Below are positions 799 to 44,664 of a stretch of DNA of 44,664 nucleotides, one piece after another. A program made the translations under genes and the position numbers. The stretch's first letter is position 1, and each line of letters begins with the position of its first letter. The notes below the pieces were generated by a model. It saw only the letters and a program-made list of their open reading frames with translations, was not told where the DNA came from and made no database searches. Source of the DNA: a virus. Where the stretch lies: positions 1-44,664 of IMG/VR virus record IMGVR_UViG_3300046459_000101, one strand, 5' to 3'.

Positions 799-1275
799 AT
801 GTTCGTGGTCGTAGAGACCAAACTCAACCAGTTCGCGGAGCTGACGCCCGGTGAGACCATCGTGTCCGCCGATGGCGTTCAGCACCCGTGGCAGATCACT
901 TCACTGTGGTCTGACGATGAGCTGGAGTTCATCAACGTCTACCGCGTGTCGCCGACGCCTGTCCCTGACGGGAAGCTGAGCACCGACTTCACGTTCGCCC
1001 GCGATGCCTCTGGCGTCGTGCGGCAAGTCCACACCCTCGTGGACGCCCCTGTCCCTCCCGTTACGCCTCGGCAAATCCGCCTCGCCCTTTCCCAGATGGG
1101 ATTGCGCCAAGCGGTCGAGACCTACGTGCAGCAGCAGGACATCACCGTGCAGGATAGCTGGACCTACGCCAGCGAGTTCTTGCGCGACAACGAGCTGATC
1201 ATCGCAGCGGCCCGCGCTCTCAACAAGAGCGACGCCGATCTCGATGGTCTGTTCGCCCTCGCAAGGTCGCTGTGA
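799..1275 (+). CDS. Tail fibre assembly-like protein
   Basis: The 158-residue protein starts at an ATG three bases after the adhesin stop and overlaps the holin start (GTGA). The N-terminal 85 residues are beta-rich. The C-terminal part, from PVPPVTPRQIRLALSQMGL, is helical and resembles the C-termini of small proteins encoded beside tail fibres in many phages, often called assembly proteins. It could be a chaperone or accessory protein for the adhesin. The family name is not certain. Confidence 0.5.
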   Translation: MFVVVETKLNQFAELTPGETIVSADGVQHPWQITSLWSDDELEFINVYRVSPTPVPDGKLSTDFTFARDASGVVRQVHTLVDAPVPPVTPRQIRLALSQMGLRQAVETYVQQQDITVQDSWTYASEFLRDNELIIAAARALNKSDADLDGLFALARSL

Positions 1276-1879: not shown

Positions 1880-2107
1880 TTGGCGCAAGGCAAAGCGTCC
1901 GCGTCGCTGATGGAGATGCTTCACGGCATCCTCGCATCGGCGCTCGCTGACAAGATCAAAGACGGCACGGCCACTGCCGCAGACCTCTCCGTGGCCCGAC
2001 AGTTTCTCAAGGACAACGGCATCGACGGCATCGCCACTGAGGCGAACCCGCTCGGTCAGCTCGCTGCCCAACTCCCGTTCAACTCTGACGATGAAGAAGA
2101 CGAATGA
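1880..2107 (+). CDS. Terminase small subunit
   Basis: The 75-residue acidic protein probably starts at TTG, directly after the previous TAA. It has helices at the start (SLMEMLHGILASALADKI) and middle (ADLSVARQFLKDNGIDG) and a very acidic tail (DDEEDE). Length and layout fit the short T7 gp18-type DNA-recognition subunits. It lies upstream of the large subunit, with one gene between. The last four bases overlap the next ATG (ATGA). Confidence 0.7.
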   Translation: MAQGKASASLMEMLHGILASALADKIKDGTATAADLSVARQFLKDNGIDGIATEANPLGQLAAQLPFNSDDEEDE

Positions 2108-3414
2108 ACTCTGACAACATCGCTGTCGATAGCACGCTTGCGCTCTACAAGGCGGGGCTCCTCGGCAGCACCGCTGCAACGCGCTTCAACCTGAACACCG
2201 TGGTTGGCCTCGGCGACAGCCGCGTGGCTCAAATCCACGCCGACAGCACCTTCCAGAACAAGAACGCCCAGAACCACTTCACCATCGGTAACGCGCTCGC
2301 GGGCAACCGCGCAGTGCTTGTGAAGAACCTCGGCGTCTCCGGCGACCGCACTGACCAAATCCTCGCGCGGCTCCCCGCAGCTCTCGCGACCGGCGCGAAG
2401 TGGCTCTACATCCACGCGGGCTGCAACGACATCGGTCAGGCGTATCCCTCGGCGACGACCTCGGGCATCACGGCTTGGACGAACATCAAGACCATGATCG
2501 ACGCCGCCGTCGCTCGCGGCATGCACGTCATCTACACGCTCGAACCCGGTGCGACCAACTTCACCACGGCGATGATCGTCCAGTTGGCGATCCTGAACGA
2601 GAAGGCTCGCGAGTACGCAGAGACGTGTCCCGGTCTGGTCCTGTTCGACCTTCCGGCTGCGATCTGGGACGGCACCAACGCCTCGACGACCGCCATCACG
2701 CTGGTCACCTCGCTGGACGGCACGCACGAGAACCTAGCGAGCGCGTACTTGGCCGGTAAGGCGTTCGCCACGCTGCTCACCGCGATCATGCCCCCGCGTC
2801 CGCACGGCTTCCGCAGCTCCGTCGAGGTGCCCGACATCTCGGTGGTGAACCTGCTGAGAAACCCCATGATGGCCAACCAAGCGGGCGGCGTCGTGGGCGC
2901 GGGCGCCAGCGGCACTATCTGCGGCTTCTGGAGCAGCCAGCGCTCCGGCAACGCGACTGGCGTCTACTCTGTCGGCACGGCCAGCGATGGCTCGGGCGTC
3001 AAGGAGCAGATCATCCAGTGCACGTTCACTGCGGCCGGTGAAGAGGTGCGCCTCATTCAGGACGTGGTCCCGGCCAACTGGTCCCCCGGCGACATCCTTC
3101 AGGCTTCGGCCGAAGTCGTGGTTGATGCAGGCTCCTCGAACCTCGCAGGCGTCACGCTGTACATGCAGTCGAACGGCTCCGGCGCACCTGATGGCAGAAC
3201 CGCCGTCACCGCGATGGACGGCTACTGCTCCGGCCCCGGCTGGGGTGCAGCGACCACCGAAGGCTACAAGGTGAACTTGCAGACCGAGAAGCTGCCGGTC
3301 CCGCTCTACACGACCAAGAGCTGGGTGACTTGTCACCTGAAAGCGGTTGGCGCGGGCGCAGGCTCGGCCACCATCCGCATCCGCCGCTTCGGCTGTCGCA
3401 AGCGCTACGCATAA
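2104..3414 (+). CDS. SGNH/GDSL-type esterase with C-terminal beta domain
   Basis: In this 436-residue protein all four SGNH blocks can be seen: GDS (residues 37-39, nucleophile Ser39), the NLGVSG glycine (about 77), GCND (106-109, Asn108), and DGTH (205-208, Asp205/His208). From about residue 240 the protein becomes beta-rich and resembles a carbohydrate-binding or virion-attachment module. Phage SGNH proteins commonly remove acetyl groups from capsule or O-antigen as tail-associated enzymes, so this is likely a virion depolymerase or deacetylase. The location between the terminase genes is unusual. Confidence 0.8.
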   Translation: MNSDNIAVDSTLALYKAGLLGSTAATRFNLNTVVGLGDSRVAQIHADSTFQNKNAQNHFTIGNALAGNRAVLVKNLGVSGDRTDQILARLPAALATGAKWLYIHAGCNDIGQAYPSATTSGITAWTNIKTMIDAAVARGMHVIYTLEPGATNFTTAMIVQLAILNEKAREYAETCPGLVLFDLPAAIWDGTNASTTAITLVTSLDGTHENLASAYLAGKAFATLLTAIMPPRPHGFRSSVEVPDISVVNLLRNPMMANQAGGVVGAGASGTICGFWSSQRSGNATGVYSVGTASDGSGVKEQIIQCTFTAAGEEVRLIQDVVPANWSPGDILQASAEVVVDAGSSNLAGVTLYMQSNGSGAPDGRTAVTAMDGYCSGPGWGAATTEGYKVNLQTEKLPVPLYTTKSWVTCHLKAVGAGAGSATIRIRRFGCRKRYA

Positions 3415-3426
3415 CCGAAAGGCTCA

Positions 3427-5178
3427 ATGAGCAAGGCCACTAAGGCCCACCTGATGGGGACCAGCAGTCACACCGCTGCTGATCCCCTGAAGGCGGACTT
3501 CCGCAACTTCCTCTGGATGGTGTGGCAACACCTCGGGCTCCCGAAGCCCACGCCAGTCCAGTACGACATCGCCAAGTTCCTACAGCACGGCCCACGCCGC
3601 TCCGTCATCGAAGCGTTCCGTGGTGTCGGCAAGAGCTGGGTCACCAGCGCCTTCGTGTGCTGGCTGCTCTACTGCAACCCGCAGCTAAAGATCATGGTGG
3701 TCTCGGCGTCGAAGAACCGCGCCGACGACTTCAGCACCTTCACCCTGCGGCTCATCAACGACATCGAGCTGCTCAACTTCCTGCGCCCCCACGACGACCA
3801 GCGGTCCTCCAAGATCGCCTTCGACGTTGGCCCGGCCAAGCCTGACCATTCGCCCTCGGTGAAGTCGGTTGGTATCACCGGCCAGCTCACGGGCTCCCGC
3901 GCAGACTACATCATCGCCGACGACATCGAGGTCGTGGGCAACTCCGCTACGCAGGCGCTCCGCGACAAGCTGGGCGAGCTGGTGAAGGAGTTCGACGCGG
4001 TGCTCAAGCCGGGTGGTCGCGTGATCTACCTCGGCACTCCTCAGTGCGAGCAGTCGCTCTACAACGCGCTCCCTGAGCGTGGCTACGTGGTCCGAATCTG
4101 GCCAGCCAGGTATCCGACCTCGGACAAGCGCGAGAAGTACGGCGTCAAGCTGGCACCGTTCATCTCCAACATCCTCGACAAGCACCCACACCTAGAAGGC
4201 CACTCGACGGACCCTGATCGGTTCTCCGACGAGGACCTGATGGAGCGCGAGATGTCCTACGGGCGCTCGGGCTTCGCCCTTCAATTCCAACTGGACACCA
4301 GTCTCTCAGATGCGGACAGATACCCTCTTAGGCTTCGCGATCTTGTTGTGCTCCCCCTTGATCCCCTACGTGCTCCAAGCGATCTGGCGTGGGCGGCGGG
4401 GCCGGATCAAATCTTCGACGAAGTCCCAGCGGTCGGCCTGAACGGCGACCACTACTACCGCCCGATCTTCGTCTCGAAGGAGTATCTGGAGTACGAGGGT
4501 TCCGTCATGTTCGTTGACCCCTCCGGTCGCGGCAAGGACGAAACCACCTACGCCGTCGTCAAGATGCTGCACGGTCGCCTGTTCCTCACGGACATCGGGG
4601 CGTTCCTCGGCGGCTACGACGAGAAGACCCTGACCAGCATCTGCATGGCCGCGCGGCGGCAGCACGTGAACCTGATCCTCTGCGAGCCCAACTACGGCGG
4701 CGGCATGTTCACCCAGCTCCTCGGGGCGGTCGCTCAGAAGACCTATCCCGTGGAAGTAAAGGACGCTGAGTGGGCTAAGGTCCAGAAGGAGATGAGGATC
4801 ATCGACACGCTGGAGCCCATCATGAACCAGCACAGGCTCGTGGTGTGCCCTTCTGTGATCGAGAAGGACTACAGGTCCACCGAGAGCTACACGGCCGAGA
4901 ACCAGCAGGCTTACCGGCTGATGTACCAGCTCACCCGCATCACGCGGGACCGTGGCGCTCTGAAGCACGACGACAGGCTAGACGCGGTCGCTGGTGCGGT
5001 GGCGCACTGGACCGAGTTCATGAACCGGGACGCCGAGAAGGCGCATCTGGAGCACCGTGAGGCCCTTGTGGACGCGGAGCTGGAGAAGTTCATGTCTCAG
5101 GTAATCGGGGCCGACCGCTTCAATGGCGGTTCCGGTGACCGCTTCGCCAGCTCGATCATGAGCGGCCGGAGACGGTAA
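3427..5178 (+). CDS. Terminase large subunit
   Basis: The 583-residue protein is of T7 gp19 type and is preceded by an AAAGG ribosome site. The ATPase part shows a Walker A (EAFRGVGKSW, residues 62-71) and a Walker B (YIIADDIE, about 161-168). The nuclease part shows VMFVDPSGRGKDET (Asp364) and a late acidic motif, HDDRLDAVAGA. It packages DNA into the procapsid through the portal at 26544 and cuts the genome ends. It is the last gene of the late transcript, and a promoter-like element and the probable genome-end region follow. Confidence 0.95.
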   Translation: MSKATKAHLMGTSSHTAADPLKADFRNFLWMVWQHLGLPKPTPVQYDIAKFLQHGPRRSVIEAFRGVGKSWVTSAFVCWLLYCNPQLKIMVVSASKNRADDFSTFTLRLINDIELLNFLRPHDDQRSSKIAFDVGPAKPDHSPSVKSVGITGQLTGSRADYIIADDIEVVGNSATQALRDKLGELVKEFDAVLKPGGRVIYLGTPQCEQSLYNALPERGYVVRIWPARYPTSDKREKYGVKLAPFISNILDKHPHLEGHSTDPDRFSDEDLMEREMSYGRSGFALQFQLDTSLSDADRYPLRLRDLVVLPLDPLRAPSDLAWAAGPDQIFDEVPAVGLNGDHYYRPIFVSKEYLEYEGSVMFVDPSGRGKDETTYAVVKMLHGRLFLTDIGAFLGGYDEKTLTSICMAARRQHVNLILCEPNYGGGMFTQLLGAVAQKTYPVEVKDAEWAKVQKEMRIIDTLEPIMNQHRLVVCPSVIEKDYRSTESYTAENQQAYRLMYQLTRITRDRGALKHDDRLDAVAGAVAHWTEFMNRDAEKAHLEHREALVDAELEKFMSQVIGADRFNGGSGDRFASSIMSGRRR

Positions 5179-5185
5179 TGGAACA

Positions 5186-5253
5186 GGGGAGGGGGCGGTA
5201 ACTAAAGGATACTGAATTAGGTTGCAGTATCGCCTTAAGGCCCCCTCCCGGTT
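5186..5253 (+). other. Nested inverted repeats around a phage promoter
   Basis: A G-rich run just after TerL (5187-5196) can pair with the C-rich run at about 5240-5250. Inside it, GATACTG (5208-5214) and CAGTATC (5225-5231) form a perfect 7-bp inverted repeat around the promoter core. A further hairpin follows at about 5266 (GTACAC-tgaa-GTGTAC). No T-run follows, so this is not a clear intrinsic terminator. Confidence 0.5.
5217..5234 (+). promoter_or_regulatory. Candidate phage RNA polymerase promoter 1 (SP6-like)
   Basis: TTAGGTTGCAGTATCGCC matches the SP6 promoter core (TTAGGTGACACTATAG) at 12 of 16 positions, which predicts a start at G5232. Near-identical copies lie at 15958 and 25556. 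Its place just after TerL mirrors T7 phi-OR at the right genome end. Confidence 0.65.
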
Positions 5254-5303
5254 CCTACTATAGTACACTGAAGTGTACCGTAGTTGGTCTAGGGTTTAGT
5301 TCC

Positions 5304-5573
5304 CTATGACTGAAGTCCCTTGTGGGGGCCACCATGACGATCAGACCCCTTAGAGACCGGCTTACGATCCTTGGCCAACTTGGACAGCATCTCAGTGCCG
5401 TGCATGACCAGCTCGGTCCCCAGCTCGATCAGCTCAGCAGGAGTGAGCGCCGCGTGAAAAGTTCCTTCGCCACTCACAGCCAGGAACCCACCTTCACCAC
5501 TCTCGATGTAGCCACATCCCTGTTCCCCCAGTCGAGTGAGGATACGACCGTGCAACTGCCGACGCTTAGGCAT
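5304..5573 (-). CDS. Small unknown protein on the opposite strand
   Basis: The 89-residue protein begins MPKRRQLHGRILTRL and starts at an ATG whose upstream sequence on this strand reads GGAGG with a 7-base spacer. That favours it over longer in-frame starts. It has a basic N-terminus, a predicted beta hairpin (GCGYIESGEGGFLAVSGEG) and a helical part (LTPAELIELGTELV). A TTGACA box lies upstream on this strand, but without a convincing -10. No family is recognised. A leftward gene is rare in T7-like phages and may belong to a lysogeny or immunity control region. Confidence 0.55.
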   Translation of the reverse strand: MPKRRQLHGRILTRLGEQGCGYIESGEGGFLAVSGEGTFHAALTPAELIELGTELVMHGTEMLSKLAKDRKPVSKGSDRHGGPHKGLQS

Positions 5574-6391
5574 TCCCAGACCTCCAATGTCATCGTAAGG
5601 GGCCCCGAGAACTCGCTGTCGCTCGTCTCGGGGCTTGTCAACTCCACTGCACCTCAGAAGCTCCACAGGAGCCCGTACAGTGGCCTTCCAATCGCCCGCA
5701 CCAAACCCTCGGGCACTCCGAAAGAACGCACACACGCCTGCCGCTCGTGGACTGGCTACGGGAATAGATAGTTTCCCAGAGGCGCACGTCAAGTGCCACT
5801 GAGGTTCCCCGGATAGTTGGCGCAAATCTCTGAAGGGCAGGCTCGAACCCTATCGGCCGCGCGTTCCCCCCTAGGCCCCTCGATCCGGCCGCAATCGGGC
5901 CGCCTGCCGTGCCCATTGTCACCGCACCTTGTCACCACCATAGGCTAACCCATTGAAATCATTGGGGTGGCGCGGGATACAGTATCCGCTTGATGCACGA
6001 TAGGGGCGGGTTAGGTGCACGCGAGGGGCCCGGCTAGTGCGGCTCGCTCGCTTTCATTTCCCTATCAGTGTCTTTGCCTCACGTGCACCTACCGTGCACC
6101 ATCACAGGCACCGAGGGCGCACCTCACAGGCACCGAGGGCGCACCGAGGGGCGGGGCATGGCCTAACCGTAGGGCGCACCGAGGGCGCACCATTGGCCGT
6201 CCTAGCGTGTCACCGAGGGCGCACCATCACAGGCACCGAGGGCGCACCGCGAAAGAATGTTGCGGCGGGACAAAAAGTGTCAGTTTGACACTGAGCACGT
6301 GCACCGCTGGCCACTCGGCAAGCCTCGCGAGGGCGCACCTCACAGGCACCGAGGGCGCACCTAGCAGGGCATGGGGCCAGGGTGATTTGTG
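5574..6391. other. Gene-poor region, probable genome-end/packaging zone
   Basis: No convincing gene is seen here. It holds a perfect 8-bp inverted repeat (CCCCGAGA 5603-5610 / TCTCGGGG 5626-5633), a palindrome GGATAC-A-GTATCC (5975-5987) and the iterated repeats at 6101-6361. Lying between TerL and the early genes, it corresponds to where T7-like phages have their terminal repeats, which an assembler would have collapsed. The exact ends cannot be located from sequence alone. Confidence 0.5.
6101..6361. repeat. Iterated 15/23-nt repeats (CACCGAGGGCGCACC)
   Basis: CACCGAGGGCGCACC occurs exactly six times (starts 6109, 6131, 6177, 6211, 6234, 6347), with partial copies near 6168 and 6326. In four copies it is preceded by TCACAGG, giving a longer unit. 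Spacing is irregular and all copies share one orientation. T7 and T3 carry arrays of short repeats next to their terminal repeats, so these may have a role in concatemer processing. An operator array is the alternative. Confidence 0.85.
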
Positions 6392-11278: not shown

Positions 11279-11668
11279 ATGATCACGAAGGGGGCTTCGC
11301 ACATGACCAGTAACGACAACAACACCAGCATCGAAGACGCGAAGTGGGTTGAGACCCTGACGCTGATCATCAACGAGTTCAGGAAGATCAGCTCGGACAT
11401 CACCGCCAACCAGATGCTGGTTCTGCTGCACGCTGGTGCGAAGCCGGGCATCACTCAGAAGGAGCTGTCCAAGGTGACTGACATCGCGGACGGCACCATC
11501 TCGCGCATCTGCGCTCTTATGTCTGACCGTGGCCATCAGGGCCGCGATGGGCTCAACGTCCTGAGCATCGACCCTGTCCCCGGCGACTTCCGCTCGAAGG
11601 GCCAGAAGCTGATCGGCGCTGGCAAGAAGATGTACGCCAGCATCAAAGCCCACATGATCAACCGCTGA
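11279..11668 (+). CDS. MarR-like winged-helix regulator
   Basis: The 129-residue protein has a perfect AAGGAG site seven bases before the chosen ATG. The pattern NQMLVLLHAGAKPGITQKEL followed by TDIADGTISRICALMSDRG fits a MarR-type winged helix-turn-helix with the recognition helix near residues 68-83. It lies between its own sigma70-like promoter and the integrase gene. It could be the lysogeny repressor, an integrase regulator or an excision factor. Candidate operators are the palindromes at 6595 and 10652. Assignment of a specific role is inference. Confidence 0.65.
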   Translation: MITKGASHMTSNDNNTSIEDAKWVETLTLIINEFRKISSDITANQMLVLLHAGAKPGITQKELSKVTDIADGTISRICALMSDRGHQGRDGLNVLSIDPVPGDFRSKGQKLIGAGKKMYASIKAHMINR

Positions 11669-11699: not shown

Positions 11700-12773
11700 A
11701 TGCCGATGGCGACTTATCCCAAGGGCAACAAGTTCATTACGAAGTTCATGGTGGACGGCAAGCGTCACACCAAGATGCACGACACGGCGGCCGAGGGCGA
11801 GGCGTGGGAATTGACCGCACGCGGTGCCCTGAAGCTCGGCAAGGCCATCCCCGAGGGCGAGAAGAAGATCGGCGGCTCCGACGCTGGCTCCCTCGGCAAC
11901 CTGCTGCGCGAGACCGCGACGCTCCACTGGTCGAAGGGCAAGGACAGCTCGAAGTGCGAGCTGAATGCCTCCACCTTCGTCAACTGGTGCGGCAAGGACA
12001 TGGGCGTGGTCGAGGCGTTCTCGCAGGAGAACATCGACGAGTTCCTCCAGTACCTGCTCAACGAGCGCGAGGTCGAGGGCTCGACGGTCAACCGCTACAA
12101 GTCGGCGATCCGCGTCATGATGGAGCGGGTGAAGCACAAGCTGCCCGCCGTCCCGACCTTCCCAAAGTTCAGGGAGAACAAGGGCCGCTTCCGGTTCTTC
12201 TCGCACGAGGAGGAGCTGGCCATCCTGTCGCTCTGGACTGTCTGGGAGCGATACCACGAGAGCGAGTTCTTCCAGTTCCTGATCGACACCGGGGCCCGCA
12301 CCTACACCGAGGGCCAGGTACTGAAGTGGGACGACATCCACAAGGACCGTGTCATCTTCTGGGACACCAAGAACGGCTCGTTCAGGGCAGTGCCGCTGTC
12401 CAACCGGGCGCAGGACATCATCGCCTCGCTCAGGAAGCGTAAGGGCAACCAGCCGGGCCCGTTCACCGAACTGACCAAGCCGCACATGCGCTGGCTCTGG
12501 GAGCGCACCCGCGCCCAGCTCCCGCAGGTCGAGGACGCCGTGGTCTACTGCACCCGGCACACCTACGGCTCCCGCATGGTCATGAACGGGGTGCCCCTGT
12601 CGGTCCTGAAGAAGCTCATGGGCCACAGCGACATCAAGATGACTGAGCGCTACGCCGTGTTCGAGGACAGCGCCGCCTTCGAGGTCGCCTTCAAGGCCCT
12701 CAACGGTGGGGGCTTCGCACCGGCCCGGCCGTCCCCGATTGGGCTGGTCGTAGACAACGCCGCCGGGGGATAG
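11700..12773 (+). CDS. int: Tyrosine recombinase (phage integrase)
   Basis: The 357-residue protein (an alternative ATG lies two codons later) has the expected order of domains. A DNA-contacting N-terminal part is followed by a core-binding SAM-like domain (about 75-150). The catalytic domain holds Arg200 (DTGARTYTEGQ), Lys224 (WDTKNGSF), Arg286 (TRHTYGSR), His309 (MGHSD) and Tyr318 (ERYAVF). A tyrosine takes the place of the usual first histidine of the HxxR box. The neighbouring tRNA-Leu with flanking repeats is its probable attP. Integrases upstream of the RNA polymerase are known in some T7-like phages, for example pelagiphages. Confidence 0.93.
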   Translation: MPMATYPKGNKFITKFMVDGKRHTKMHDTAAEGEAWELTARGALKLGKAIPEGEKKIGGSDAGSLGNLLRETATLHWSKGKDSSKCELNASTFVNWCGKDMGVVEAFSQENIDEFLQYLLNEREVEGSTVNRYKSAIRVMMERVKHKLPAVPTFPKFRENKGRFRFFSHEEELAILSLWTVWERYHESEFFQFLIDTGARTYTEGQVLKWDDIHKDRVIFWDTKNGSFRAVPLSNRAQDIIASLRKRKGNQPGPFTELTKPHMRWLWERTRAQLPQVEDAVVYCTRHTYGSRMVMNGVPLSVLKKLMGHSDIKMTERYAVFEDSAAFEVAFKALNGGGFAPARPSPIGLVVDNAAGG

Positions 12774-42597: not shown

Positions 42598-43920
42598 ATG
42601 GCAAGCTACGTTATTTATCCGGGTGACGGTGTACAGACCGACTTCTCTGTGCCGTTCCCCTACCTCTCGAAGGACCACGTAAAGGTCTACTCCGGCGGCG
42701 TCGCAGTGACGCCGAACTGGATCAATGCGGCTCTCATCCGCGTGTCGCCTGCCGTCGCGTCCGGTGCTGTGCTGCTCGTGCAGCGCAAGACTGACAAGGC
42801 ACCGCTCACGGTGTTTGAGAACACCAACAACCTCACGGCCGAGAACCTCACGCTCGCGGAGACGCAGGCGCTGTTCATTGCCGAGGAGGCGAGCGACCGC
42901 GCTGAGCAGTCGATCATCGTCAGCGAAGCGAACGGCCAGTACGACTTCAACGGCCGACGCGCCACGAACGTCTCCGACCCGATCAACGATCAGGACGTGG
43001 TCACGAAGAAGTGGGCGGTCACCTCGCAGACCGCGACGCTCGCGCAGGCGATCCAGCAGGCACAGAACGCGGCGGCCTCGGCCACGCAGGCTGACACCGA
43101 CGCTGGCTACGCTGCGGCTGAGCGGCTCACCATCAGCGGCTGGAAGGACACCATCTTCGGATGGATGAACACCATCAGCGGCTGGAAGGACACGATCAAC
43201 GGTTGGTACACGTCCGTGCAGGGCTGGTACAATTCGGTGAACACGTGGCAGGCCCAGGTCTCGCAGGACAAGGGCACGGTCGCGGCTGATAAGGCCACGG
43301 TCGCGCAGGACAAGGCCACCGTCGCTGCCGACAAGGGCATCGTCGCGGGCTACAAGTCCGATGCGAACACCAGCGCCACGAACGCTGCGGCCTCGGCTGC
43401 TGCGGCTGCGCTCTCTGCGGGCTCTGTCGATGGACCGAATCTGCTCACGAAGAGTGGCAACCTCGGCGGCCTGACGGACGTGCCTGCGGCGCGGACCAAC
43501 CTAGCCCTCGGTGATGTGGCTACCAAGAACGTCGCGACCGTCTCCCAGATCAGGCAGGGCAACAGCTCCGTCGCGGTCACCGTCGATCAGGCGTGGGCTG
43601 CGGGTGCCTTCATCGACTTCGGCAACAGCGGCTCCGGCAACATCAACATCGACTGCAACAACGGCTCGCGCTTCCGCGTGCTCCTCACCGGCAACGTCAC
43701 GGTCAACCTTCTCAACCCGAAGGATGGTCAGGTGGTGGACATCGTGTTCATCCAAGACGGCGCGGGCGGTCGCTCGGTGAGCTGGAACACCAACATCCGC
43801 TTCCCCGATGGCATCGCACCGACTGTCGCTACGGCGGCCAACGGTTGGGCTGTCGTCTTCTCAGGCGTCTACGTCGGGCCGCACACGCAGTGGCAGGCGA
43901 CTGGCTGGAAGAATAGCTGA
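42598..43920 (+). CDS. Tail fibre protein, gp17-like N-terminus
   Basis: In this 440-residue protein residues 1-110 match the T7 gp17 tail-attachment domain (YVIYPGDGVQTDFSVPFPYL, NNLTAENLTLAETQALFIAE). A shaft follows with two repeat types: Trp-containing heptads (about 181-217, GWKDTI/GWYTSV) and four DK-x-TVAA heptads (about 223-248), both pointing to a trimeric coiled coil. The C-terminal 150 residues are beta-rich (NINIDCNNGSRFRVLLTGNV). It is short compared with T7 gp17 (553), and the adhesin at 43920 probably completes the tip. Confidence 0.9.
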   Translation: MASYVIYPGDGVQTDFSVPFPYLSKDHVKVYSGGVAVTPNWINAALIRVSPAVASGAVLLVQRKTDKAPLTVFENTNNLTAENLTLAETQALFIAEEASDRAEQSIIVSEANGQYDFNGRRATNVSDPINDQDVVTKKWAVTSQTATLAQAIQQAQNAAASATQADTDAGYAAAERLTISGWKDTIFGWMNTISGWKDTINGWYTSVQGWYNSVNTWQAQVSQDKGTVAADKATVAQDKATVAADKGIVAGYKSDANTSATNAAASAAAAALSAGSVDGPNLLTKSGNLGGLTDVPAARTNLALGDVATKNVATVSQIRQGNSSVAVTVDQAWAAGAFIDFGNSGSGNINIDCNNGSRFRVLLTGNVTVNLLNPKDGQVVDIVFIQDGAGGRSVSWNTNIRFPDGIAPTVATAANGWAVVFSGVYVGPHTQWQATGWKNS

Positions 43921-44558
43921 TGGATCATCTGATCCTGCCCTCGCTGCGGCGCAGATTGCCGTGGCGGGGGTTCCCCATCACTCCCGGCTCAGCCAGCTAC
44001 ACCTCGCCCGGCACCTACAGCCTCGTCGTCCCCGCCAACTTCAACACGTTCGTCATCGACGCTCGTGGCGCTGGTGGCGGCGGCGGTGGCGCGGGCTGCT
44101 ACTACCCTCCGGTCCAGTACGGCAGCGCAGGTGCAGCCGGTGGTGCGTCCTACGTCACCATCCCCGGCTGGGCGAGCGTAATCGGCTACGCTGGCGATGG
44201 TGGTGGGGCCGCCGTTTACACCGGCAGCTTCACATGGAACGACGGCGCGGGTGGCGCTCACGGCACTGCGGTCAACGGCGACAGTAACATCACTGGCGGC
44301 GGCGCGGCCGGTGGCGGCGGTGGCAACCAGTACGGTGGCTACAACCCCAACCCGCGTAGCGTCGGTGGCGCTGGTGGTTACGGTGGCCGCGCAGTCCGCA
44401 CATTCACCAAACAGCAACTGATCGTGCAACCGAGGCAGACGCTGACAATCGTTGTCGGCGGCACAGGCCCGGCAGGCGCGAACTCCCCATGTTCGGGAAG
44501 CGTCTACGCAGTCCCTCAGCCCGGCGGTGCCGGTGCTGTCTACATCTCTTGGAGCTAA
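43920..44558 (+). CDS. Glycine-rich fibre-tip adhesin, allele B
   Basis: The 212-residue protein starts at an ATG overlapping the fibre stop. It shares the first 20 residues, the PGSASYTSPGTYS segment, the GDSNITGGGAAGG and GGYNPNPRSVGG blocks and the end (KQQLIVQPRQTLTIVVGG ... AVYISWS) with allele A at 160-795. It differs in the exposed glycine-rich loops (for example GCYYPPVQYGSAG against GTLSPQGYGTAGG). Such loop variation with constant framework is expected for a receptor-binding tip. Confidence 0.7.
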   Translation: MDHLILPSLRRRLPWRGFPITPGSASYTSPGTYSLVVPANFNTFVIDARGAGGGGGGAGCYYPPVQYGSAGAAGGASYVTIPGWASVIGYAGDGGGAAVYTGSFTWNDGAGGAHGTAVNGDSNITGGGAAGGGGGNQYGGYNPNPRSVGGAGGYGGRAVRTFTKQQLIVQPRQTLTIVVGGTGPAGANSPCSGSVYAVPQPGGAGAVYISWS

Positions 44559-44561
44559 CCC

Positions 44562-44664
44562 ATGTTCGTGGTCGTAGAGACCAAACTCAACCAGTTCGCG
44601 GAGCTGACGCCCGGTGAGACCATCGTGTCCGCCGATGGCGTTCAGCACCCGTGGCAGATCACTT
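44562..44664 (+). CDS. Tail fibre assembly-like protein, N-terminal fragment (contig edge)
   Basis: The first 34 codons are identical to the gene at 799-1275, and the frame is then cut by the contig end. It represents the same gene, reached by the second path of the assembly, rather than a truncated paralog. Confidence 0.8.
   Translation, partial: MFVVVETKLNQFAELTPGETIVSADGVQHPWQIT

Follow-up and report, generated by a model that had tools for sequence, protein, structure and literature searches.

Both Ends of the Window Carry the Same Locus

The window, a DNA stretch of 44,664 nt that makes up the whole of IMG/VR record IMGVR_UViG_3300046459_000101, begins and ends with a tail fiber locus. 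Each of the two arms (positions 1-901 for allele A and 43761-44664 for allele B) contains the 3' end of a fiber gene, a whole ORF for a glycine-rich adhesin, and the start of a gene of 158 aa, all on the + strand. The complete copy of the fiber gene (42598-43920, + strand) lies directly upstream of the adhesin and is of the T7 type (PF03906 Phage_T7_tail, 5.1e-29; phrog_26630 tail fiber, 2.3e-25); in the left arm, its 3' end extends to position 160. Adhesin allele A (160-795; 211 aa) has a weak match to the Pfam family Gly_rich_2, below cutoff, and allele B (43920-44558) encodes 212 aa; the two proteins are 80% identical, and the adhesin ATG overlaps the fiber stop codon by one base. The 158-aa gene is complete at 799-1275 (+ strand; phrog_6034, 2.7e-11), and its first part is repeated at the right end of the window. 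As a lone query it retrieved no viral contigs; its homologs come after the adhesin in four of the relatives described below (L003, L009, L004, and L010) and in Bradyrhizobium phage BDU-MI-1.

The two arms align over 916 columns with 85.4% identity (E=0). Their outer edges are identical over 126 bases on the left and 127 bases on the right, the longest identical run inside them is 77 bases, and self-comparison revealed no further copy of the end segment elsewhere in the window. A reading made earlier from the sequence had already placed one locus at both contig ends, and the coordinates, lengths, and flanks that it gave proved correct.

Divergence Is Concentrated in the Adhesin Tip

The differences between the arms are distributed very unevenly: 2 of 159 sites in the fiber 3' end, 0 of 60 in the N-terminal anchor of the adhesin, 135 of 555 in the tip, and 0 of 127 in the adhesin 3' end and next gene. 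The contrast between the tip (135/555) and its flanks (2/346) is highly significant (Fisher p=7e-29), and the divergent segment, at 220-774 in allele A (+ strand), differs by ~24% in nucleotide sequence, with almost no change on either side of it. The changes comprise 71 synonymous and 66 nonsynonymous ones (dN/dS 0.25), in agreement with the many synonymous changes that had been reported; since half of the changes are synonymous and dN/dS is low, the alleles are old, diverged versions of the gene and not fresh mutants. The overall dN/dS of 0.25 does not support positive selection on the adhesin.

It had also been claimed that the changes are concentrated in loops. We do find them clustered, at residues 60-76, 96-101, and 187-198, but the excess outside predicted strands (30/124 vs. 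14/68) is not significant in the predicted structure (p=0.35), so that the clustering stands and the loop assignment does not. The differences avoid all columns that are invariant among six adhesins, across which there are invariant glycines.

A Candidate Receptor-Binding Tip

An AlphaFold2 model of allele B is of fair quality (pLDDT 84.9), and its best Foldseek match in BFVD is an uncharacterized protein of Pseudomonas phage Itty13 (TM 0.71, 40% identity). Against the PDB, Foldseek gave weak matches only, to ALK glycine-rich domains and a Bxb1 tail-tip chain (PDB 7nx3 and 9d93, respectively); the glycine-rich part bears a weak structural resemblance to both, with E-values of 2.4e-3 or worse and low TM-scores, and we claim no homology. 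Based on its position, glycine-rich design, and variability, the protein is likely to be the receptor-binding tip of the fiber, and the two alleles would then alter host recognition.

In position and design, the protein would function in the manner of gp38, whose gene lies directly after that for the gp37 long tail fiber. The adhesin of the window resembles gp38 of T2-type and S16-like phages (PDB 6F45; PMC12892980) in that its gene comes right after the tail fiber gene, glycine-rich motifs alternate with hypervariable stretches, and variation is confined to the tip, whereas it differs in sitting on a T7-like fiber and in having a different short N-terminal anchor. The gp38 adhesins have a polyglycine-II core from which hypervariable loops project (PMC12892980). 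Searches of solved structures in the PDB with the single sequence (E≤1) and with a profile (E≤5) returned no match, and thus no sequence relationship to gp38. As regards a polyglycine-II sandwich fold, the model of fair quality had only weak PDB matches, with S16 gp38 absent among the best 50 matches listed.

The Window Is a T7-Like Phage Genome

The backbone is that of a T7-like phage (Autographivirus-type), with a single-subunit RNA polymerase (phrog_414, 1.5e-257), the T7-type fiber, a head-tail connector, endonuclease I, and SSB (PF12236, PF05367, and PF21265, respectively), in addition to helicase-primase, DNA polymerase A, terminase, and tail protein genes. The order of these genes is unbroken from the large terminase subunit gene terL (3427-5178, + strand; phrog_38, 1.2e-114) through the early genes and round to the fiber, with the sole break at the adhesin, which indicates that the assembler had closed the sequence into a circle. 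The physical genome ends of T7 lie after terL; several near-identical repeats of 28-39 bases follow terL in the window (6096-6362) and may be close to such ends. A gene for a GDSL-type lipase (2104-3414; PF13472) is located between the adhesin region and terL; L004 and L010 encode a different SGNH-like protein in its position, so this slot is variable too.

The window also encodes a tyrosine-type integrase (11700-12773), with a MarR-like gene just upstream (11279-11668), in an otherwise T7-like genome. The genome of Rhodopseudomonas palustris XCP has, on one of its contigs (206 kb), a terminase 89% identical to that of the window, which, together with the integrase, suggests a temperate lifestyle; the same terminase points to a host that may be a relative of Rhodopseudomonas or Bradyrhizobium.

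Close Relatives Carry One Adhesin

Using terL as the query, we identified close relatives of the window. A single adhesin lies between the fiber and the next gene in the four nearest relatives that have this gene, namely L009, L004, and both halves (L010 and L030) of IMGVR_UViG_3300046665_000193 (G008; L028-L031). The cultured Bradyrhizobium phage BDU-MI-1 likewise has the order fiber, adhesin, and 799-type gene in single copy. Its glycine-rich protein (ARQ95333.1, annotated as "hypothetical protein") shares with the adhesin of the window the gene order, the glycine-rich signature, and the GAVYISWS end, and it is 42-44% identical to the window alleles and 69% to L009, but the phage itself differs in having a 121-kb genome in which a tail sheath gene is annotated. 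Single-sequence adhesin queries found nothing in viral contigs or phages; given that BDU-MI-1 does carry an adhesin, these searches probably missed relatives because glycine-rich sequence is masked.

Other relatives depart from this arrangement. Three found through the terminase (L005, L006, and L007) have different fiber ends in the adhesin slot, and L050, a more distant phage, has two intact adhesins side by side after the fiber (4995-5597 and 5601-6290), neighboring glycine-rich genes that differ from each other. The 5.8-kb contig L003, with a terminase 95% identical to that of the window, starts inside the adhesin gene, as if the assembly had broken there too. We also considered G008, of 78,980 bases, as a second case of the end effect seen in the window and rejected it, because it consists of two related but distinct genomes joined end to end, which for the most part are ~77-92% alike.

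A Probable Case of Two Tip Alleles on One Circular Assembly

Taken together, these observations make it very probable that the record is one circularly closed assembly of ~43.76 kb (43,760 bases with one allele and 43,763 with the other) to which both tip alleles are attached, one at each contig end. The assembler would have closed the circle, left a bubble open at the adhesin gene, and written one allele at each end. The arms have the form expected of such a bubble at k=127: about k bases are common to both at each outer edge, the left edge being one base short, and with a maximum internal run of 77 no k-mer is shared inside, leaving one clean bubble. Another IMG/VR contig of the same phage group, G002, ends in an exact 127-base repeat, which makes this k plausible for such records, and we infer the assembler and k=127 for the sample of the window. 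The k-sized edges, the terminal repeat of G002, and the single-copy relatives all support the earlier proposal of a bubble traversed twice around a circular graph. Among the other contigs checked, none has an imperfect terminal overlap.

On this reading of the record as a circular assembly, the sampled population would hold at least two tip versions, with a backbone that is elsewhere common to them or collapsed, and each virion would presumably carry only one version. Because assemblers of the metaSPAdes type collapse minor differences between strains (PMC8021871), further variation may be concealed in the backbone; the additional statement in the sequence-only reading, that the populations differ mainly in their tip, therefore goes beyond what a consensus contig can show.

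A true tandem duplication, in which every genome would have a second adhesin together with copies of the flanks and use the pair to switch hosts or mix tips, has a precedent in another form in the tandem glycine-rich adhesins of the related cassette in L050. We consider it improbable here. Nowhere does the contig lead from the next gene back into the fiber end, the repeated unit would hold gene fragments on both sides where L050 has intact adhesins next to each other, and it would be by chance that the identical edges at both ends come so close to an assembly k. Moreover, in the window a single adhesin comes after the complete fiber gene with the next gene directly behind it, and the close relatives have one copy, in keeping with the lower rank that the tandem pair had been given from the outset. 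About as improbable is a chimeric contig, in which the assembler would have joined two clearly different phages instead of alleles of one population: G008 proves that such contigs occur, but its halves differ throughout, whereas no more than 2 of 346 flanking sites distinguish A from B and the window has a single backbone.

Restriction of the variation to one tail-tip gene might also recall a program that diversifies the adhesin, such as a diversity-generating retroelement or an inversion switch, an origin that we regard as extremely unlikely. The window contains no third copy that could serve as a template repeat, no reverse transcriptase is present among the ORFs scanned (a subset of all ORFs), half of the changes are synonymous, and the substitutions (CT 40, CG 31, AG 19, AC 18, AT 15, and GT 12) show no adenine bias, so that a diversity-generating retroelement in particular appears disfavored as the source of the alleles.

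Tips May Be Exchanged among Phages

An independent case of phages whose backbones are nearly identical while their tips are not is provided by G002 and the first half of G008: their identity is 99.3% upstream of the fiber and 95.8-99.2% in the sequence right after the adhesin, yet it falls to 53.6% in the tip. The fiber and the N-terminal domain of the adhesin are 90% alike in this pair, indicating that the tip does not sharply delimit the exchanged block. The G002 tip has a closer match in the second half of G008 (65.8%), even though the backbone there is only ~74-87% alike. Similarly, the adhesin of L009, which has a T7-like backbone, shares 69-73% identity with its counterparts in BDU-MI-1 and L050 and only 47-48% with the adhesins of the window.

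The tips of G002 and G008, the affinities of L009, and the sharp boundaries between alleles A and B would all be explained best by recombination that replaces the tip, swapping it between the conserved gene ends (the N-terminal anchor and the 3' end) and so creating alleles. We give an even chance to the broader idea that phages with differing body plans, infecting related Alphaproteobacteria, exchange the tip as a cassette by recombination, so that a single sampled population has several tips on one backbone, drawn from a shared pool.

Implications

The tail-fiber region is also the variable spot of otherwise conserved genomes in the host-recognition hypervariable (metaviromic) islands of marine phages (PMC7029224), although those are large gene clusters, unlike the single small gene of the window phage. 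The variation described here is of a known kind, of which the window is a good example, and it implies no new mechanism. An imperfect terminal overlap with k-sized identical edges is, however, a signature of complete phage genomes that can be read from the sequence only, and end-repeat detection would call such genomes linear. Our comparisons further indicate a little-known family of glycine-rich tips in phages of Bradyrhizobium and Rhodopseudomonas relatives. Because the signature also identifies the gene that distinguishes phages of one sample from each other, it would make tip polymorphism searchable across viral contig collections.
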